A stretch of DNA of 64,000 nucleotides from Thalassospira lucentensis (GTDB lineage Bacteria; Pseudomonadota; Alphaproteobacteria; Rhodospirillales; Thalassospiraceae), in contig NZ_LPVY01000003.1 of assembly GCF_001613805.1 (NCBI RefSeq), positions 186,001-250,000 of the forward strand, given 5' to 3'. A program made the translations under genes and the position numbers. The notes beneath the pieces were generated by a model. It saw only the letters and a list, made by a program, of their open reading frames with translations. It made no database searches and was not told the DNA's origin. Of the stretch, positions 21,251 to 57,829 are shown piece by piece (positions within the stretch are counted from its first letter, which is position 1; the number at the start of each line of letters is the position of its first letter).

Positions 21251-24200
21251 TTATGCCTTTGCCGCAATATCGGCCAAACGACGCATCAGACGCTTCAAAC
21301 CCTCCAGACGATCTGTCGGACCATCCCAACCAGCGGCATAGACGATCTTGTGATCCGGACGCAAACGTGCCACGCCAACCTGTTGCTGGATAAAACCAAC
21401 CAGACCGACCGGATTCGGGAATTCATTATTCCGAAGCGTGATCAACGCACCTTTGGGACCGGCATCGAGTTTTTCAACATTGGATGTCCGGCACCACTGT
21501 TTGATCGTGACCACATCCAGAAGATTTTCAACTTCCTTCGGCAATTTGCCGAACCGATCAATCATCTCGGCGGCGAACTGATCGACTTCCTCGCGTGAAC
21601 GTAATTCCGAGATACGACGATACAGACCAAGTCGCACACCAAGATCAGGCACATAGCGATCCGGTATCAGAACCGGCATTCCGACATTGATCTGCGGGAC
21701 GAAGGATGTCGCATCATCGGCTTCGATCTCTCCCTTGGCCTCTGCCACGGCTTCTTCGATCATTTGCTGATAAAGTTCGATCCCGACTTCCTTGATATGG
21801 CCCGATTGTTCCTCGCCAAGCAGGTTCCCTGCCCCACGAATGTCAAGGTCATGGCTGGCAAGATTGAAACCGGCGCCAAGACTGTCAAGCGTCTGCATGA
21901 CCTCAAGTCGCTTCAGCGCCGTTGCGGTGAGTTTCTTGCCATTCGGCAACGTCAGATAGGCATATGCACGCTGTTTTGATCGACCGATACGCCCGCGCAA
22001 CTGATAAAGCTGTGCCAGCCCGAACATGTCAGCACGATGGATGATCATGGTATTGGCGTTCGGAACATCGATGCCGGACTCAATGATGTTGGTCGCAAGC
22101 AACAAATCAAATTTGCGATCGGTGAAATCGGTCATCACCTGTTCGAGGTCGCGCGCGCCCATCTGACCATGTGCGACGTCAAACTTGATTTCAGGCACAA
22201 GCGTTTCAAGTTCTTTGGCAATCCGTCCAAGTTCATTGACCCGCGGACACACATAGAAGATTTGTCCCCCACGGTGACGTTCACGCAGGATCGCTTCGCG
22301 CACGACTACCGGGTCATAAGGCGTGATATAGGTCCGAACAGCCAGGCGATCGACCGGCGGTGTTGCAATAATCGAAAGTTCTTTAACTCCGGTCAGCGCA
22401 AGCTGCAATGTGCGCGGGATCGGCGTCGCCGTTAGCGTCAGAACGTGAACATCGGTTTTAAGCTCTTTCAGGCGTTCCTTGTGCTTTACGCCGAAATGCT
22501 GCTCTTCATCGATAGTCAGAAGCCCAAGGTCCTTGAACTTTACACCGTTACCCAAAAGCGCGTGCGTACCGCATACGATATCTACATGTCCGCTTTCAAG
22601 GTTGTCCTTGACCAGTTTGGCGTTCTTGCCGGTTACCAGACGCGATAGTTGTTCAACCCGGACCGGAAGCCCGTCAAAGCGCTGCCTGAAGGTCAGGTAA
22701 TGCTGCCGGCACAACAACGTTGTCGGGGCGACAATCGCAACCTGCTTGCCGGACATCACTGCGGCAAAGGCAGCACGCAATGCAACCTCTGTCTTACCAA
22801 AACCGACATCACCACACACAAGACGATCCATAGGTTTGCCCGCCGCGAGATCGTCCAGCGTATCACGAATGGCACGCGCCTGATCCTCGGTCTCTGCAAA
22901 CGGGAAACTTGCGCAGAACTCGTCATAACTACCTTCGGGGGCGGTCAAGGCCGCCCCTTTGCGCAGGTGGCGTTCGGCGGCAACCTTGATCAGCTTACCA
23001 GCCATATCACGGATACGTTCGCGCAGCTTGGCTTTGCGGGCTTGCCATGCAACACCGCCAAGCTTGTCAAGAATCGACAATCCCTCGTCGGAGCCATATC
23101 GCGACAGAACTTCAATATTCTCGACCGGAACAAAAAGCTTGTCCCCGCCGTCATATTCCAGTTCCAGACAATCGTGTGGCGCACCACCTGCGGTAACGGT
23201 CCGAAGACCAAGATAGCGACCGATCCCGTGATCAAGATGAACGACGAGGTCACCCTCTGAAATCTCGGATGCTTCCCGCAGGAAGTTTTCGGCCTTGCGA
23301 CGGCGTCCGCCCGGGCGGCTCATGCGGTCGCCCAGAATATCCTGTTCCGATAGGATCCAAAGGCCTTCGCGGCGGAAACCATGCTCTAGGTCAAGAATAA
23401 CAATGGCGAGCTGTTCCGGTGTCAGATCATCGGTGATGTCTTCCCAACATTCCGCGGTTACAACCTTGGCAACACCATGTTCGCGCAAGACGGAAACCAT
23501 ACGGTCACGTGATCCGTCAGAATAAGCCGCAATAACAACCTGCTGATTTTTCCCACGCTGGACAGAAATGAAATCGCGTAGCTCGTCATAAAGGTTAGTA
23601 TCGGCGCGTGCCCGCACATCACCAAAATCACGTCCCGGTCGTGCGCCCATATCAAAAACGGCACGCTCAGGACTCTCTTCCTCGTAATAGGGGGAAAGCT
23701 CAAGAACCGTGCGATCATTCAGCATCCGGTCAAATTCGGCCTGATCCAGATAAAGCCGTTCGGGTGGAACAGGTTTGTAAACATTGTCCCCCGAAAGCCC
23801 ACCGCCCTTTATGTTCAGGCGCGCCTGATAATAATCGTCAATCATCTCAAGGCGGTTTTCGATAACCTCGCCATATTGATGATCAAAACTGACCATTACA
23901 TCCGGCAGATAGGCAAAAACAGTGTCCATACCGTCGTGGAATAGCGGCAGCCAATGTTCCATGCCACCATATTTCAAGCCGTTACTGATCGACTCATAAA
24001 GTGGATCAGCTTGCGATACGACACCAAAAAGTTCGCGATATCCACTGCGGAACCGGGAAATGCTGTCCTGATCGAGGAACACTTCGCCAACGGGCAAAAG
24101 GGCGATTTCATTGATCCGTCCGACGGTACGCTGCGTTTCAACGTCAAATCGGCGAATACTTTCGATCTCGTCCCCAAAGAAATCAAGCCGCACGGGCTCT

Positions 24201-24748
24201 TTCATGCCGGGTGCAAAGATATCAACAATATCACCGCGAACCGCGTAATCACCTGGCTCCATAACCTGTTCGGCACGGTTATAGCCCATCCGGTCGAAAT
24301 ATCCGGTCAGATCGGCGCGCGAATGTTCCTGTCCTGACTTAAAGGTCAGTTTGCCATCCCGCATGACGTCGACCCGCGGAACCCGCTGCATGATCGCGGC
24401 CGCTGTTGCCAGAACAATACGTCCCTGCCCACTGGCCGGTTTGATATCCTCGGCCAGTGTCGTCAATGTTTCAACACGGCGTGCCGTTACTTCGGCAATC
24501 GGCGAAACCCGGTCGTAGGGCAAGCAATCCCATGCAGGCAGGGTTAAGACCTCGACCTCGCCCGCAAAGAAAGCAAGTGCCTCCGCAAGCTGGGCCATGC
24601 GCTTATCATCGCGCACGACATGCAGGATTGTTGAGTTGTTTACCGATGCATCCAGCAATTCACGCAGCAGCAAAGCGTCGGCACCCTCTGGCACGCCACA
24701 CAGCCGTTTGCGACCTTTAGTCGAAATAATTTCTTTTAATTTGCTCAA
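21251..24748 (-). CDS. mfd: Transcription-repair coupling factor
   Basis: Removes RNA polymerase stalled at DNA lesions and recruits UvrA. The 1165-residue protein has the expected order: UvrB-like N-terminal modules (about 1-350), RNA-polymerase-interacting domain (about 490-560, VHLDHGIGRYLGL), RecG-like helicase motor with Walker A GDVGFGKTEVALRAAF near 640 and DEEQHFGVKHKERLK near 745, the TRG motif region including RIGRSKQRAYAYL near 930, and a C-terminal D7 domain. The start is TTG at 24748, four bases after the sdhE stop, with a weak ribosome site, pointing to translational coupling. uvrA, its partner, is also in this window. Confidence 0.97.
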   Translation of the reverse strand: MSKLKEIISTKGRKRLCGVPEGADALLLRELLDASVNNSTILHVVRDDKRMAQLAEALAFFAGEVEVLTLPAWDCLPYDRVSPIAEVTARRVETLTTLAEDIKPASGQGRIVLATAAAIMQRVPRVDVMRDGKLTFKSGQEHSRADLTGYFDRMGYNRAEQVMEPGDYAVRGDIVDIFAPGMKEPVRLDFFGDEIESIRRFDVETQRTVGRINEIALLPVGEVFLDQDSISRFRSGYRELFGVVSQADPLYESISNGLKYGGMEHWLPLFHDGMDTVFAYLPDVMVSFDHQYGEVIENRLEMIDDYYQARLNIKGGGLSGDNVYKPVPPERLYLDQAEFDRMLNDRTVLELSPYYEEESPERAVFDMGARPGRDFGDVRARADTNLYDELRDFISVQRGKNQQVVIAAYSDGSRDRMVSVLREHGVAKVVTAECWEDITDDLTPEQLAIVILDLEHGFRREGLWILSEQDILGDRMSRPGGRRRKAENFLREASEISEGDLVVHLDHGIGRYLGLRTVTAGGAPHDCLELEYDGGDKLFVPVENIEVLSRYGSDEGLSILDKLGGVAWQARKAKLRERIRDMAGKLIKVAAERHLRKGAALTAPEGSYDEFCASFPFAETEDQARAIRDTLDDLAAGKPMDRLVCGDVGFGKTEVALRAAFAAVMSGKQVAIVAPTTLLCRQHYLTFRQRFDGLPVRVEQLSRLVTGKNAKLVKDNLESGHVDIVCGTHALLGNGVKFKDLGLLTIDEEQHFGVKHKERLKELKTDVHVLTLTATPIPRTLQLALTGVKELSIIATPPVDRLAVRTYITPYDPVVVREAILRERHRGGQIFYVCPRVNELGRIAKELETLVPEIKFDVAHGQMGARDLEQVMTDFTDRKFDLLLATNIIESGIDVPNANTMIIHRADMFGLAQLYQLRGRIGRSKQRAYAYLTLPNGKKLTATALKRLEVMQTLDSLGAGFNLASHDLDIRGAGNLLGEEQSGHIKEVGIELYQQMIEEAVAEAKGEIEADDATSFVPQINVGMPVLIPDRYVPDLGVRLGLYRRISELRSREEVDQFAAEMIDRFGKLPKEVENLLDVVTIKQWCRTSNVEKLDAGPKGALITLRNNEFPNPVGLVGFIQQQVGVARLRPDHKIVYAAGWDGPTDRLEGLKRLMRRLADIAAKA

Positions 24749-24752
24749 TGTT

Positions 24753-25028
24753 TTAACGTGCGTTGCTCAGTTCCTGAATCATGTGCAGCACATCGGTATC
24801 GTATTCTTCCGGTGCCGGTTCTTTACCCGTTGCCCATTTAAAGAAATCGGCATCGGGAACGTCATTCATCAGTGTTTCAAAACGTTCGAGTTGCGCCTCT
24901 GACAGGGTCGCGAGGTGTGCATCCATAAACCGGCCGATCAGGATATCGTTCTCCTTGGTGCCGCGATGGCCGCCGCGAAACAGCAACTTCTTGCGTCGTA
25001 CTTCAAGTTCTTTGCTGTCGATACTCAC
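24753..25028 (-). CDS. sdhE: SdhE-type FAD assembly factor for succinate dehydrogenase
   Basis: A small antitoxin-fold protein (formerly DUF339/YgfY) that promotes covalent flavinylation of SdhA. I place the start at GTG 25028 because AGGAG lies seven bases upstream; the frame runs on to 25100 without family similarity. The 91-residue protein shows the key RGGHRGTKEND motif (family RGxxE) near residues 18-28, followed by ILIGRFMDAHLATLSEAQLE. It is divergent from recG and directly upstream of mfd, a neighbourhood (recG-sdhE-mfd) common in alphaproteobacteria. Confidence 0.92.
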   Translation of the reverse strand: MSIDSKELEVRRKKLLFRGGHRGTKENDILIGRFMDAHLATLSEAQLERFETLMNDVPDADFFKWATGKEPAPEEYDTDVLHMIQELSNAR

Positions 25029-25173
25029 GTTCGATCTCCTGTCTTTTCTGGTCCCATGCCTTGGCACAAAACCAAAGGCACAGATTGTCTTTTGTGGCAT
25101 GGTTTGTACGGTAAATTCACCGATTGGTCCATGCTGTCATCCATCCAATTTGCATTGGCTCGTGACTTGTCGG

Positions 25174-25201
25174 TTGTCGCACGATAATTTTGTTGTATAC
25201 C
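25174..25201 (+). promoter_or_regulatory. Predicted recG promoter
   Basis: TTGTCG (25174-25179), a 16-base spacer and TATACC (25196-25201). The same -10 hexamer is used in the predicted uvrA promoter. Transcript start is expected near 25208, just before the LexA-like box. Confidence 0.5.
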
Positions 25202-25219
25202 CAGCACGTAAACCGATTT

Positions 25220-25234
25220 GTTCTATTAACGTTC
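25220..25234 (+). promoter_or_regulatory. Candidate LexA (SOS) box between recG and sdhE-mfd
   Basis: GTTC-TATTAAC-GTTC matches exactly the direct-repeat GTTC-N7-GTTC operator known for alphaproteobacterial LexA. It lies 28 bases before the recG start and about 190 before sdhE, a few bases downstream of the predicted recG transcript start, where bound LexA would block transcription. Confidence 0.6.
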
Positions 25235-25261
25235 TCATCTGAAAACTCAACGAAAACTGTC

Positions 25262-27349
25262 ATGCGTCCGGAAATTTTATTCCCGCTTTTTGCTGAAATC
25301 GACAGCCTGCCCGGTATTGGTCCGCGCCTGAAGCCTTTGCTCGCGCGGTTGATTGGTGGTGAGCATGTTGTCGATTTGCTCTGGCATCTGCCATCCGGGC
25401 TGATTGACCGGCGTTTTTCACCGCCGCTAACAGAAACAATTGACGGGTCGATTGTTACGCTTGATGTCTGGGTCGAACGCCATGACGCTCCGCCGAACCG
25501 CCGCCGTCCATATCGGGTAATTTGCAAAACCCAGAGTGGCCCGGTGGTTTTGGCATTTTTCAATGCGCGCGCCAAATACCTGAATGAAGTTTTACCAACA
25601 GGTGAAAAACGAATTGTATCGGGCAAAATTGATCACTATCGGGGCGAATATCAGATCACCCATCCTGACCGGATCGGGACCGAGGCCGAGCGCGAGGAAA
25701 TTCAGACGGTCGAGCCTGTTTATCCGATGTCTGCCGGTGTTACAGGTAAAACACTAACCAAATCGACCCGGGCAGCCCTGACAATGGTGCCAGAACTGCC
25801 GGAATGGCATGATCCCGCTTTACAGGCACGCCACAAATGGCCGAACCTGAAATCCGCCCTGCATCAGGTTCATAATCCTGAAAATGAGAGTGATCTGTCA
25901 CCTGACCACCCTGCCCGCAAGCGACTTGCCTATGATGAGTTGCTGGCAAATCAGCTTGCCCTTGCGCTTATCCGGGCCAAAATGCGTAAACTGGGCGGAA
26001 TATCGACAAAGGGTGATCGCCGTTTGCGCAAGGCGCTTGAAGCAGAACTGCCCTTTGCCATGACGGGTGCGCAGCAACGCGCCCTGAAAGACATTTACGA
26101 GGATATGAGCAGCAACGGTCGCATGTTGCGCCTGCTTCAGGGGGATGTTGGTTCGGGGAAAACGGTTGTCGCGCTGATGGCCATGCTGAACGCAATCGAA
26201 ACCGGTCGTCAGGCCGCATTAATGGCGCCGACAGAAATACTTGCCCGCCAGCATTTTGAAACCATTGCCCCCCTCCTGGAAAAGATCGGCGTGACCTGCG
26301 CCATCCTGACAGGGCGCGATAAAGGCAAAAGTCGCAAGATAGCACTTGAGGGCTTTGCCAATGGAACTTTTCAGGTTGCTGTTGGTACGCATGCGCTGTT
26401 CCAGGAAGACGTGCAGTTCCACGACCTGGCCTTTGCCGTTGTCGATGAACAGCATCGATTTGGCGTACATCAACGCCTTATGCTGGCTGGCAAAGGACAG
26501 GCAGTCGATGTCCTGGTCATGACCGCAACACCGATCCCCCGAACTCTGACCCTGACAGCGTTCGGGGATATGGAAGTATCGCGGCTGGACGAAAAACCGC
26601 CGGGACGAAAGCCGGTTGATACTCGTGTTCTACCTGCGGACAAGGTTGACGATGTCATATCAGGCATCGGTCGCGCCATGCGCACCGGGACCAAAATCTA
26701 CTGGGTTTGCCCCTTGGTCGAGGATTCCGAATTCCTCGATTTGCAGGCTGCAGAAGAACGGTATCGCATTCTGGTCGACCTGTTTGGCGAAAGCCGTGTC
26801 GGACTTGTCCACGGAAAAATGAAAGCCAAGGACAAGGATGCCGTGATGGAGCGCTTCGCCCACGGTGATCTGTCTATTCTTGTCGCGACAACGGTGATTG
26901 AAGTTGGGGTGAACGTGCCCGACGCAACAATCATGGTCATCGAACACGCCGAACGGTTTGGTCTGGCACAACTTCATCAGTTGCGTGGGCGGATCGGGCG
27001 CGGAGACGCGGCATCAACCTGCCTGCTGCTGTATGGTTCACCTTTAGGCGAGATTTCCAAAGCCCGTCTCAAGATCATGCGCGAGACAGAAGACGGCTTC
27101 ATCATTGCCGAGGAAGATCTTCGCTTGCGTGGTGCGGGCGAAGTTCTGGGCACCCGGCAAAGCGGATTGCAGGCCTATCGCCTTGCCAGTCTGGAAATGC
27201 ACGGTGATCTTCTGGCAATCGCCCGCGACGACGCCCGCCTGATTGTCGAACTTGATCCTGACCTGCAAAAGCCACGCGGAGAAGCATTACGGTTGTTGTT
27301 GTATCTTTTCGAACGCGACGAAGCCGTTCGCTATTTCCGATCAGGATAA
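25262..27349 (+). CDS. recG: ATP-dependent DNA helicase RecG
   Basis: Remodels stalled replication forks and Holliday-type branched DNA. Domains in order over 695 residues: N-terminal wedge/OB domain (about 60-150), helicase motor with Walker A QGDVGSGKTVVALMA near 295 and the DExH box VDEQHRFGVHQR near 393, motif VI QLRGRIGRGDAASTCLLLY near 580, and a C-terminal TRG-type hairpin region (LRLRGAGEVLGTRQSG). ATG 25262 gives the family N-terminus MRPEILFPLFAEIDSLPGIG; an upstream in-frame TTG at 25190 would add unconserved residues. No strong ribosome site precedes the ATG. A LexA-like box lies 28 bases upstream. Confidence 0.96.
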   Translation: MRPEILFPLFAEIDSLPGIGPRLKPLLARLIGGEHVVDLLWHLPSGLIDRRFSPPLTETIDGSIVTLDVWVERHDAPPNRRRPYRVICKTQSGPVVLAFFNARAKYLNEVLPTGEKRIVSGKIDHYRGEYQITHPDRIGTEAEREEIQTVEPVYPMSAGVTGKTLTKSTRAALTMVPELPEWHDPALQARHKWPNLKSALHQVHNPENESDLSPDHPARKRLAYDELLANQLALALIRAKMRKLGGISTKGDRRLRKALEAELPFAMTGAQQRALKDIYEDMSSNGRMLRLLQGDVGSGKTVVALMAMLNAIETGRQAALMAPTEILARQHFETIAPLLEKIGVTCAILTGRDKGKSRKIALEGFANGTFQVAVGTHALFQEDVQFHDLAFAVVDEQHRFGVHQRLMLAGKGQAVDVLVMTATPIPRTLTLTAFGDMEVSRLDEKPPGRKPVDTRVLPADKVDDVISGIGRAMRTGTKIYWVCPLVEDSEFLDLQAAEERYRILVDLFGESRVGLVHGKMKAKDKDAVMERFAHGDLSILVATTVIEVGVNVPDATIMVIEHAERFGLAQLHQLRGRIGRGDAASTCLLLYGSPLGEISKARLKIMRETEDGFIIAEEDLRLRGAGEVLGTRQSGLQAYRLASLEMHGDLLAIARDDARLIVELDPDLQKPRGEALRLLLYLFERDEAVRYFRSG

Positions 27350-53729: not shown

Positions 53730-54809
53730 ATGCCTTCCGTTAAACCCGGTGTTGTTACCGGTTCTGCCTACCGTGACCTTGTTGCTGCCTGCAAGCAGGA
53801 CGGTTACGCCCTTCCCGCCGTCAATATCACATCGTCCAGCACGATGAATGCCGCCCTTGAAGCCGCTGCAAATGCCGGTTCTGACATCATCATTCAGCTT
53901 TCGAATGGCGGTGCACAGTTCTTTGCCGGCAAGGGCATCAAGGACGCTGCAGCAGCCCGTGTCGTGGGCGCTATATCGGCAGCACGTCATGCCCAACTGA
54001 TGGCTGAGTATTATGGCGTTGCTGTCGTCATGCATACCGACCACGCAAACCGGAAATTCGTTCCGTGGGTCGATGAAATGCTGAAATGGAGCGAAAAGGC
54101 CTATGCCGAGACCGGCAAGGCGCTTTACAGCTCCCACATGCTGGACCTGTCCGAGGAATCGCTCGAAGACAACCTGTCAACTTGCGAAGAATTCCTCAAA
54201 CGCATGGCCAAAATCGAAATGAGCCTAGAGATTGAACTGGGCGTGACCGGCGGTGAAGAAGACGGCATCGGCCATGATCTTGACACCAGTGTCGAGGAAA
54301 TCGATCCGCGTCTGTATACCCGTCCCGAAGAAGTCGAAGAAGCATATCGCCGTCTTGCTCCGCTTGGCCATTTCTCGGTCGCGGCGGCATTCGGCAACGT
54401 TCATGGCGTTTACAAACCAGGTAACGTAAAACTTCGTCCGGAAATCCTTCTGGAATCCCAGAAATACGTTTCGGAAAAGCATAATCTTGGCAACCGTCCT
54501 CTGGACTTCGTGTTCCATGGCGGTTCGGGTTCGGAAAAAGAAAAAATCGAAGAAGCAGTCGGCTATGGCGTCTTTAAGATGAATATCGATACCGATACCC
54601 AGTTCGCCTATTCGCGCCCGGTTGGTGAATATGTCGAAGCCAACGCACGCGCGTTCAAGTATCAGGTCGATCCGGATACCGATCAGCCCTACAAAAAACA
54701 GTACGATCCGCGCGTCTGGGTTCGCGAAGCCGAACTTTCGATGGCAGCCCGCCTCGAAGAAGCTTTCAAGGATCTTGGGGCAACCGGTCGTTCGGTTACC
54801 AAAGGCTGA
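53730..54809 (+). CDS. fbaA: Class II fructose-bisphosphate aldolase (FbaA type)
   Basis: Cleaves fructose-1,6-bisphosphate to two triose phosphates, zinc-dependent. The 359-residue length equals that of E. coli class IIA FbaA, and the sequence follows it closely: VMHTDHANRKFVPWVDEML (zinc His), LSEESLEDNLSTCEEFLKRM, EIELGVTGGEEDGIG (zinc Glu), AAFGNVHGVYKPGNVKLRP (zinc His), VFHGGSGSEKEKIEEAVGYG (zinc His) and FKMNIDTDTQFAY. AGGAGGAG precedes ATG 53730. As the last gene of the amino-sugar operon, it would carry fructose-6-P-derived carbon on after phosphorylation. A related bisphosphate substrate cannot be excluded. Confidence 0.93.
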   Translation: MPSVKPGVVTGSAYRDLVAACKQDGYALPAVNITSSSTMNAALEAAANAGSDIIIQLSNGGAQFFAGKGIKDAAAARVVGAISAARHAQLMAEYYGVAVVMHTDHANRKFVPWVDEMLKWSEKAYAETGKALYSSHMLDLSEESLEDNLSTCEEFLKRMAKIEMSLEIELGVTGGEEDGIGHDLDTSVEEIDPRLYTRPEEVEEAYRRLAPLGHFSVAAAFGNVHGVYKPGNVKLRPEILLESQKYVSEKHNLGNRPLDFVFHGGSGSEKEKIEEAVGYGVFKMNIDTDTQFAYSRPVGEYVEANARAFKYQVDPDTDQPYKKQYDPRVWVREAELSMAARLEEAFKDLGATGRSVTKG

Positions 54810-54902: not shown

Positions 54903-54929
54903 CTGACAGATACTGACAGGAACTGTCAG
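54903..54929. repeat. Three CTGACAG-type elements at 10-bp spacing upstream of uvrA
   Basis: CTGACAG (54903-54909), CTGACAG (54913-54919) and its inverse CTGTCAG (54923-54929). Each begins exactly ten bases after the last, and the set ends eight bases before the predicted uvrA -35. Confidence 0.7.
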
Positions 54930-54937
54930 GGGTGCGC

Positions 54938-54966
54938 TTGCGTATCAGGTTTGGCTCCTCTATACC
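54938..54966 (+). promoter_or_regulatory. Predicted uvrA promoter
   Basis: TTGCGT (54938-54943), exactly 17 bases, TATACC (54961-54966). Transcription should begin near 54973, at the first base of the LexA-like box. Confidence 0.65.
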
Positions 54967-54973
54967 TTTTCCC

Positions 54974-54988
54974 GAACATTACAGGAAC
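54974..54988 (+). promoter_or_regulatory. Candidate LexA (SOS) box of uvrA
   Basis: GAAC-ATTACAG-GAAC is the complementary form of the alphaproteobacterial LexA operator GTTC-N7-GTTC. It lies 13-27 bases before the uvrA ATG and eight bases after the -10. Confidence 0.75.
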
Positions 54989-55000
54989 AAAAGGCCCGAC

Positions 55001-57829
55001 ATGCTGACGAAAATTTCGGTTCGCGGTGCGAAAGAACATAACCTGCAAAATATCGATGTTGAACTGCCCCGCGATTCCCTGGTGGTGATCACCGGTCTGT
55101 CGGGGTCGGGTAAAAGTTCGCTGGCGTTCGATACGATTTATGCCGAAGGACAGCGTCGTTATGTCGAAAGCCTGTCAGCATATGCGCGCCAGTTCCTTGA
55201 ACTGATGCAGAAGCCCGATGTTGAATATATCGACGGCTTGTCTCCAGCCATTTCCATCGAACAGAAAACCACATCGCGCAACCCGCGTTCGACCGTGGGA
55301 ACGGTTACCGAGATTTATGATTATATGCGTCTTCTTTGGGCGCGCGTCGGCATTCCCTATTCCCCGGCAACCGGTCTTCCGATTGTCAGTCAGACCGTAT
55401 CACAGATGGTTGACCGCGTTATGGAAATGCCCGAAGGCACTCGGCTTTATCTGTTGGCACCGTTTGTTCGTGGCCGCAAAGGGGAATACAAAAAGGAACT
55501 GCGCGATTTGCGCACGCGTGGTTTCCAGCGCGTCAAGATCGATGGCGAAATGTATGACATCGACGAAGCGCCTGAACTGAACAAAAAGCTCAAACACGAT
55601 ATCTCGGTCGTGGTGGATCGTCTGATCGTCAAGGACGGGATTGCAACCCGCCTTGCAGACAGCTTTGAAACTGCCCTTGAACTGACAGACGGTATCGTCC
55701 TGACCGAAGATGCCAAAACCGGCGAAACAACCGTGTTCTCGGCAAAATTCGCCTGCCCGGTTTCCGGGTTCACGATTGAGGAAATCGAACCGCGCCTGTT
55801 CTCGTTCAACAATCCGTTTGGCGCCTGCCCGGCCTGTGATGGTCTTGGCACCCAGATGGAATTCGACCCGGAACTGGTCGTCCCCGACGAAGGCAAAAGC
55901 CTTGATGATGGCGCCGTTGCGCCTTGGGCCAGCACCACGTCGAAATATTATTTGCAAACGTTGCGCGCAGTTGCCAAGCATTTCGGCTTCAAAACCAATG
56001 TCGCATGGGAAAAGCTTCCGAAAACAGCACAGGACATCATCCTGTATGGTTCGGGTGATGAAGACGTCACGGTAACCTATGATGACGGTTCACGCAGCTA
56101 CAAGGTATCCCGCCCGTTCGAAGGTGTCATTCCCAACATGTCGCGCCGCTGGCGCGAAACCGATAGCCAGTGGGCACGCGACGAACTGTCGAAATACCAG
56201 ACGGTTTCAAGCTGTCCGACCTGCGAAGGTCATCGCCTGAAACCCGAAGCGCTGGCCGTAAAGATCGATAAATGCACGATTTCGGAAATTACCGACCTTT
56301 CGATTGGCAAGGCTGCCGACTGGTTCCAGGCGCTTGAGGGCAAACTGAATGAAAAAGAAACCGAAATCGCGCGACGTATCCTGCGTGAAATCAATGATCG
56401 CCTGCGATTCCTGCGCGATGTCGGGCTGGATTATCTGTCGATGTCACGCACATCTGGCACCCTCTCGGGCGGCGAAAGCCAGCGTATCAGACTGGCGTCG
56501 CAGATCGGGTCGGGCCTGACCGGTGTCCTTTATGTTCTGGATGAACCATCCATCGGCCTGCATCAGCGCGACAATGATCGGCTGCTTGATACCCTGAAAC
56601 GTCTTCGCGATCTGGGCAATACCGTCCTGGTTGTCGAACATGACGAAGACGCCATTCGTGCCGCCGATTATGTCGTCGATATGGGCCCAGGGGCCGGGAT
56701 CCATGGCGGACGGATCGTTGCCGAAGGAACCCCTGAACAGATCCAGCAAAACCCGAATAGCCTGACCGGCAAATACCTTGTCGGGGTCGAACAGATCGCC
56801 GTTCCCAAGGAACGCCGTAAAGGCAATGGCAAGTCGATTGCGATCAAGGGGGCACGCGCCAACAACCTGCAAAATGTTGATGCCGAGTTCCCGCTTGGCA
56901 AATTTATCTGCGTTACCGGTGTTTCGGGTGGTGGCAAGTCCAGCCTTGTTATTGAGACGCTGTATAAGGCGCTTGCAAAACGGATGCATAATGCGCGCAA
57001 TCATCCCGGTGCGCATGACACCATTACCGGCATCGAACATATCGATAAAATCATCGATATCGATCAAAGCCCGATTGGCAGAACCCCGCGTTCCAACCCC
57101 GTGACCTATACCGGGGCCTTTACACCGATCCGTGACTGGTTCGCGCAATTGCCCGAAGCCAAAACGCGCGGTTACAAGCCCGGGCGTTTCTCGTTCAACG
57201 TCAAGGGCGGACGGTGTGAAGCCTGTCAGGGCGATGGCGTGATCAAGATCGAAATGCACTTCCTGCCCGACGTTTACGTCACCTGTGATCAGTGCAAGGG
57301 CAAACGATACAACCGTGAAACGCTGGAAATATCGTTTAAAGGCAAATCGATATCTGACATTCTTGACATGACAGTTGAAGAAGGTGCCGATTTCTTCAAG
57401 GCAGTTCCGTCCATTCGCGACAAAATGGAAACCCTGAAACAGGTGGGGTTGAGCTACATCCATCTAGGTCAGCAGGCAACAACACTTTCAGGCGGCGAGG
57501 CACAGCGCGTAAAGCTGGCCAAGGAGCTGTCAAAACGCGCAACAGGCCGCACACTTTATATCCTTGACGAACCGACCACCGGACTTCATTTCCACGACAT
57601 TCGCAAGCTTTTGGAAGTGCTGCACACCATTGTCGATCAGGGCAACACGGTGGTTGTGATCGAACATAACCTTGATGTCATCAAAACCGCCGACTGGATC
57701 ATCGATATTGGTCCCGAGGGTGGCGATGGCGGCGGCAAGCTGGTTGGTTGCGGCACGCCCGAGGCTATTATGGCTAACGAGGGAAGCTATACCGGAAAAT
57801 ACCTTAAACGTCATCTCGGCCTGAAGTAA
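55001..57829 (+). CDS. uvrA: Excinuclease ABC subunit A
   Basis: Damage-recognition ATPase of nucleotide excision repair. The 942-residue protein has two ABC ATPase modules: Walker [21 protein letters not shown] near residue 32 and [20 protein letters not shown] near 643, with signatures [17 protein letters not shown] near 487 and [17 protein letters not shown] near 827. Zinc-binding clusters appear as [19 protein letters not shown] and the C-terminal CEACQGDG / [10 protein letters not shown]. The frame is open from 54932, but [20 protein letters not shown] at ATG 55001, with AAGG six bases before, is the family start. Promoter and LexA box are directly upstream. Confidence 0.97.

Follow-up and report, generated by a model that had tools for sequence, protein, structure and literature searches.

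The recG gene of the Thalassospira genome analysed here is predicted to be repressed by LexA and is very probably damage-inducible. Ahead of it lies a GTTC-N7-GTTC box, GTTCTATTAACGTTC, separated by 27 bases from the recG start codon (ATG 25262). Because the box is conserved throughout the genus, keeps a fixed distance to the probable -10 element TGTATACC and outlasts the other matches to the same pattern, which decay among relatives, we read it as the recG operator. From this comparative evidence we estimate at roughly 0.87 the probability that it is a real operator of a LexA-repressed recG promoter. GTTC-N7-GTTC is the LexA motif of alphaproteobacteria (PMC8565304 and PMC3323433, both in excerpt). 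The box was located by a pattern search of the window, the whole 64-kb stretch of DNA under analysis (G000:C3:186001-250000). The search bore out the original prediction, which had reported an exact match at 25220-25234 of the + strand.

Table 1 Features of the recG, sdhE-mfd and uvrA regions; positions are those of the window.
Feature	Position	Strand	Basis or remark
LexA-type operator candidate GTTCTATTAACGTTC, GTTC-N7-GTTC, recG leader	25220..25234	+	both halves intact in 28/28 readable of 29 Thalassospira
TGTATACC, probable -10 of recG	25194..25201	+	the same in every readable row of the genus; putative function
GTTGTC, weak -35 candidate of recG, 16-17 bp spacer	25173..25178	+	sequence reading; GGTT largely conserved
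recG, 695 aa, ATG start	25262..27349	+	ORF list and alignment of relatives
Candidate sdhE(-mfd) promoter, -35 TGGACC (25131-25126), 17 bp, -10 TACAAA (25108-25103)	25103..25131	-	conserved block; putative function
sdhE, GTG 25028, SD AGGAG 25036-25040	24753..25028	-	name from the original prediction; start kept as ATG or GTG
mfd	21251..24748	-	name from the original prediction; start codon not settled
Second conserved LexA-type box, GAACATTACAGGAAC on +	54974..54988	-	ahead of uvrA; kept in 10/10 relatives examined

Taken alone, a match to this motif carries little weight. Five matches were found in the window, compared with a mean of 2.51 (sd 1.52) in dinucleotide shuffles, and 8 of 100 shuffles reached five or more; the bare match is thus not significant, as the original prediction had cautioned. 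The whole genome holds 175 matches against 115 for a reversed control pattern, so most single matches would be meaningless. Arithmetic from the genome-wide count gives about 0.009 matches expected by chance (about 1%) in the gap of about 231-233 bp that the divergent genes recG and sdhE share.

A simple promoter scan of 24900-25500 found no sigma-70 consensus. In the recG promoter TGTATACC, which is invariant, would be paired with a weak -35 element, and a transcript start placed from TGTATACC would lie near 25208, in agreement with the earlier proposal that the box follows the recG start by 12 bases. The box itself begins 18 bases past TGTATACC.

RecG and Mfd both act where replication forks or polymerases stall. 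This, and the common gap from which recG and sdhE-mfd diverge, would favour a single LexA operator serving both directions, with both transcription units damage-inducible. The gene read as mfd, downstream of sdhE, was also the second RecG-like helicase match of the recG search. However, about 90 bp separate the box from the conserved candidate promoter of sdhE (TGGACC-17-TACAAA, 25131-25103, - strand), near which no other exact GTTC-N7-GTTC was found. For that distance sdhE-mfd, with its sdhE start at 25028, is probably beyond the operator's reach. The suggestion that sdhE-mfd might be damage-inducible too therefore finds no support here, and shared control of this kind is unlikely. Still less likely is the compound scenario in which recG joined the SOS response in the common ancestor of Thalassospira or earlier, separately from Vibrio, and its one operator also tunes sdhE-mfd. 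Under such joint control, damage would raise fork remodelling by RecG and transcription-coupled repair by Mfd together.

The case for LexA control of recG itself is built on an alignment of relatives. The recG gene is present in all 29 Thalassospira genomes compared, and both GTTC halves stand intact at the same place in each of the 28 upstream regions that could be read; the remaining genome, G020, has N across the box. Conservation in relatives, which the original prediction had named as a check on itself, was thereby found throughout the readable genus. For column statistics G020 and the short G021 were dropped, leaving 27 aligned rows. In these the box scores highest among the 15-bp windows of the 231 gap columns (mean conservation 0.956), a value shared with the window starting one base before it. 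None of its eight fixed positions varies in any row, whereas elsewhere in the gap 49 of 216 columns are invariant, and in the near flanks 6 of 44. The genomes are related and their columns are not independent, so these figures are given with no formal p-value. In all 26 relatives measured TGTATACC and the box are 18 bases apart, and the interval from the box to the ATG varies between 26 and 28. Both halves are kept even in the six most distant species, whose gap sequence outside the box is 0.47-0.52 identical to the window. The inner bases vary among distant species (GTTCTTATAATGTTC, GTTCTGCTAATGTTC and others), and such variation between fixed halves is what one expects of an operator whose spacer is partly free. 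A match too weak to trust in one genome thus becomes convincing once relatives are aligned.

Conservation of this block could also reflect the site of another regulator such as CtrA, or constraint on the recG leader or on a longer RecG N-terminus. CtrA sites have the form TTAA-N7-TTAA, and the box of the window does contain TTAAC; this element is found in 21 of the 28 readable boxes, compared with both GTTC halves in 28 of 28, and the CtrA site was rejected on that count. An in-frame TTG at 25190 would extend the recG frame through the box, but the recG open frame is 697-701 aa long in 6 of the 29 genomes, too short to reach it, and coding therefore does not explain its conservation. A leader RNA was likewise set aside, as the one match of an Rfam search over 24700-25700 (E 0.49, 20.5 bits) fell well short of the gathering score of 50. 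We regard this group of explanations as very improbable.

The boxes of established SOS genes served as positive controls for LexA as the regulator of recG. One full-length LexA was found in each of the 29 Thalassospira genomes, that of the window included. Five shorter and weaker matches, in G010, G014, G018, G024 and G027, probably represent other repressors. In 29/29 genomes a box is present in the lexA promoter, beginning 59 bases before the lexA start. A box also precedes recA in 29/29, at -192 to -195 in 27 genomes, at -151 in G010 and at -144 in G025. A box also precedes imuA-imuB (L176), where imuB was identified by Pfam IMS and imuA, which had no Pfam match, was named by position and reading.

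Within the window, the conserved box ahead of uvrA (named from its sequence) sits 12 bases before the ATG at 55001; uvrA is a core alphaproteobacterial SOS gene according to the excerpt of PMC3323433. The other three window matches were kept in 2/10, 3/8 and 6/10 relatives, the last being coding, within an aldolase-like ORF (53730-54809). A match near lexA, taken as a negative control, was kept in 5 of 29 genomes. Two further elements were observed upstream of uvrA: a probable -10, CTATAC (54960-54965), directly precedes the box, and a near-invariant block, CTGACAGATACTGACAGGAACTGTCAG (54903-54929), which contains the inverted repeat CTGACAG-GAA-CTGTCAG, is conserved in 10 aligned relatives.

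Motif strength was assessed with a matrix trained on the lexA, recA and imuA boxes only, with genes weighted equally and recG and uvrA left out. Of the 175 boxes in the genome of the window, 124 distinct ones were fetched and 123 of them scored. The recG box ranked 31 of 123 with a score of 15.7, and the uvrA box ranked below it (34 of 123, score 12.8). Ranks 1-30 scored well above both recG and uvrA, at 25.5-33.2; they belong to the three training genes of this genome, to L174, L144 and L187, and to 24 copies of a repeated promoter. The recG score lies well below these mainly because of its spacer. By this left-out matrix the recG box resembles the genome's own operators beyond the eight fixed bases, more weakly than ranks 1-30 do, and it looks like a moderate operator, better than that of uvrA. 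Least probable of all is that the GTTC repeats are a meaningless chance match before a constitutive recG: the window count lies within the shuffle range and the recG score falls below ranks 1-30, but halves invariant in 28/28 readable genomes at a fixed distance from the -10, between flanks that drop to about half identity, set against four other matches that some or most relatives lack, led us to reject it.

The claim that LexA controls recG is hence strongly supported by the 28/28 readable boxes, the lexA and recA boxes in 29/29 genomes and a score above that of uvrA, and damage induction is a prediction drawn from it. The sequences show directly that the box exists and is conserved, that it keeps a constant spacing to the putative -10 and that it resembles the boxes of lexA, recA, imuA and uvrA; LexA binding, the transcript start, repression and induction at recG are inferred from these. 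In undamaged cells a LexA dimer would occupy GTTC-N7-GTTC at about +13 to +27 of recG and hinder the polymerase in leaving the promoter or in the first steps of elongation. Once DNA is damaged, RecA bound to single-stranded DNA would trigger LexA self-cleavage, the box would be freed and RecG would rise, to remodel stalled forks and branched DNA. The moderate motif score suggests that repression would be modest rather than complete, and since the box is downstream of the putative start, repression could be partial. A well-supported predicted gene would thus be added to the SOS regulon of Thalassospira.

The recG box shares with the alphaproteobacterial LexA operator the same direct repeat and spacing, which the genome's own lexA, recA, imuA and uvrA also have. 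Its spacer, TATTAAC, is unlike those of the other boxes, and it lies just downstream of the putative start. The original prediction was right that recG is not a classical SOS gene in E. coli, yet recG has already been published as a LexA target in Vibrio and predicted as one in some alphaproteobacteria. LexA binds the recG promoter of V. parahaemolyticus in EMSA (PMC3323433, in excerpt), and V. cholerae recG is tabulated among SOS genes with a value of 4.1, taken here as a fold change (PMC5963079, in excerpt). Thalassospira would thus resemble Vibrio in placing the same gene under SOS control, as predicted from its sequence. Gammaproteobacterial LexA, unlike that of alphaproteobacteria, recognises CTGT-N8-ACAG, and the two cases are probably of separate origin. 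Comparative genomics with the alphaproteobacterial motif has also placed recG under predicted LexA control in 'some alpha-Proteobacteria' (PMC3323433); the set named in the excerpt of that work consists of Rhizobiaceae, Brucellaceae and Rhodobacteraceae, and Thalassospira is absent from it. Evidence of RecG regulation in several Bacteroidetes is also mentioned in the excerpt of PMC8565304. A literature search for Thalassospira and LexA returned no Thalassospira SOS study, judged by title, and a text search of the Caulobacter paper PMC12700426 found no mention of recG or mfd. As a LexA target, then, recG is already known, and the Thalassospira case is new in that it was not met in the literature search.

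Two samples were used to look for the box outside Thalassospira; they may overlap. In the first, 60 upstream stretches from named contigs, nearly all titled alphaproteobacteria and one titled Lactobacillaceae, no exact box was found at recG. Six of the 60 held one-mismatch sites, three of them in Phyllobacterium at -31. The second was class-wide with one genome per family and covered 69 of the 95 recG matches from other genomes, some of which begin a few codons inside the gene. Here the exact box was absent from 68 of 69, and 15 others held one-mismatch sites at scattered places. The sole exact case (L304, in G060, the one genome of its family) is GTTCTCATCCTGTTC, beginning 32 bases before the start; by arithmetic about 0.8 exact matches are expected by chance in this sample, so the L304 box is about what chance gives. 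A family-level recG search returned Thalassospira alone, the same genomes as the genus search. As the exact box was absent from 60/60 and 68/69, wider homology does not vouch for it. As far as seen in the sampled genomes, the recG box is a Thalassospira feature, and the simplest reading is that it was gained by the common ancestor of the genus or earlier. SOS control of recG would accordingly be patchy among alphaproteobacteria, a pattern consistent with repeated gain.

Several other LexA-type boxes were observed in the genus. We dropped recN (upstream loci L003 and L380-L408) as a non-SOS comparison when it proved to carry a box in 28 of 29 genomes. The recN box begins 188-210 bases upstream of the gene in 23 of these and lies at -48 in five; one genome has none. 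LexA control of recN in Thalassospira, which these boxes may indicate, would be unexpected, since the excerpt of PMC3323433 states that such control is lacking in the alphaproteobacteria it studied. Another box, GTTCCTATTTTGTTC, closely precedes the probable ATG of a radical-SAM gene (PF04055; L174, about 1505; C12:237084 of the same genome). The photolyase-like gene splB is described as SOS-controlled in the excerpt of PMC3323433.

The repeated promoter contains GTTCTTGATTTGTTCTTT, present in 24 exact copies in the genome of the window (e.g. L005, L013, L165, L184, L190 and L203). By eye these copies have a promoter-like setting, with -35 TTGATT inside the box and -10 CATAAG/A, and a terminator-like hairpin was also seen at GTTCTTGATTTGTTCTTT loci, one of which was folded. 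Of the 21 loci examined, 17 have a small Arg/Gly-rich or basic ORF (..GWRSHYGG..) downstream. No Rfam match to the repeat was found in 20 loci, and one of the encoded peptides had no PHROG match. Six of the 29 genomes, apparently two distant lineages, carry 21-30 copies each and the rest 0-2. In at least seven loci (L190, L352, L361, L370, L371, L377 and L378) the GTTCTTGATTTGTTCTTT promoter precedes a short MGSLFSTP.. ORF, the genome's own copy being L190 (C20:249210). At L352 (G004:C1:3493107) a phage head-to-tail connector gene then follows (Pfam PF12236, E 8.7e-87), and a phage-like cluster may be under SOS control across the genus.
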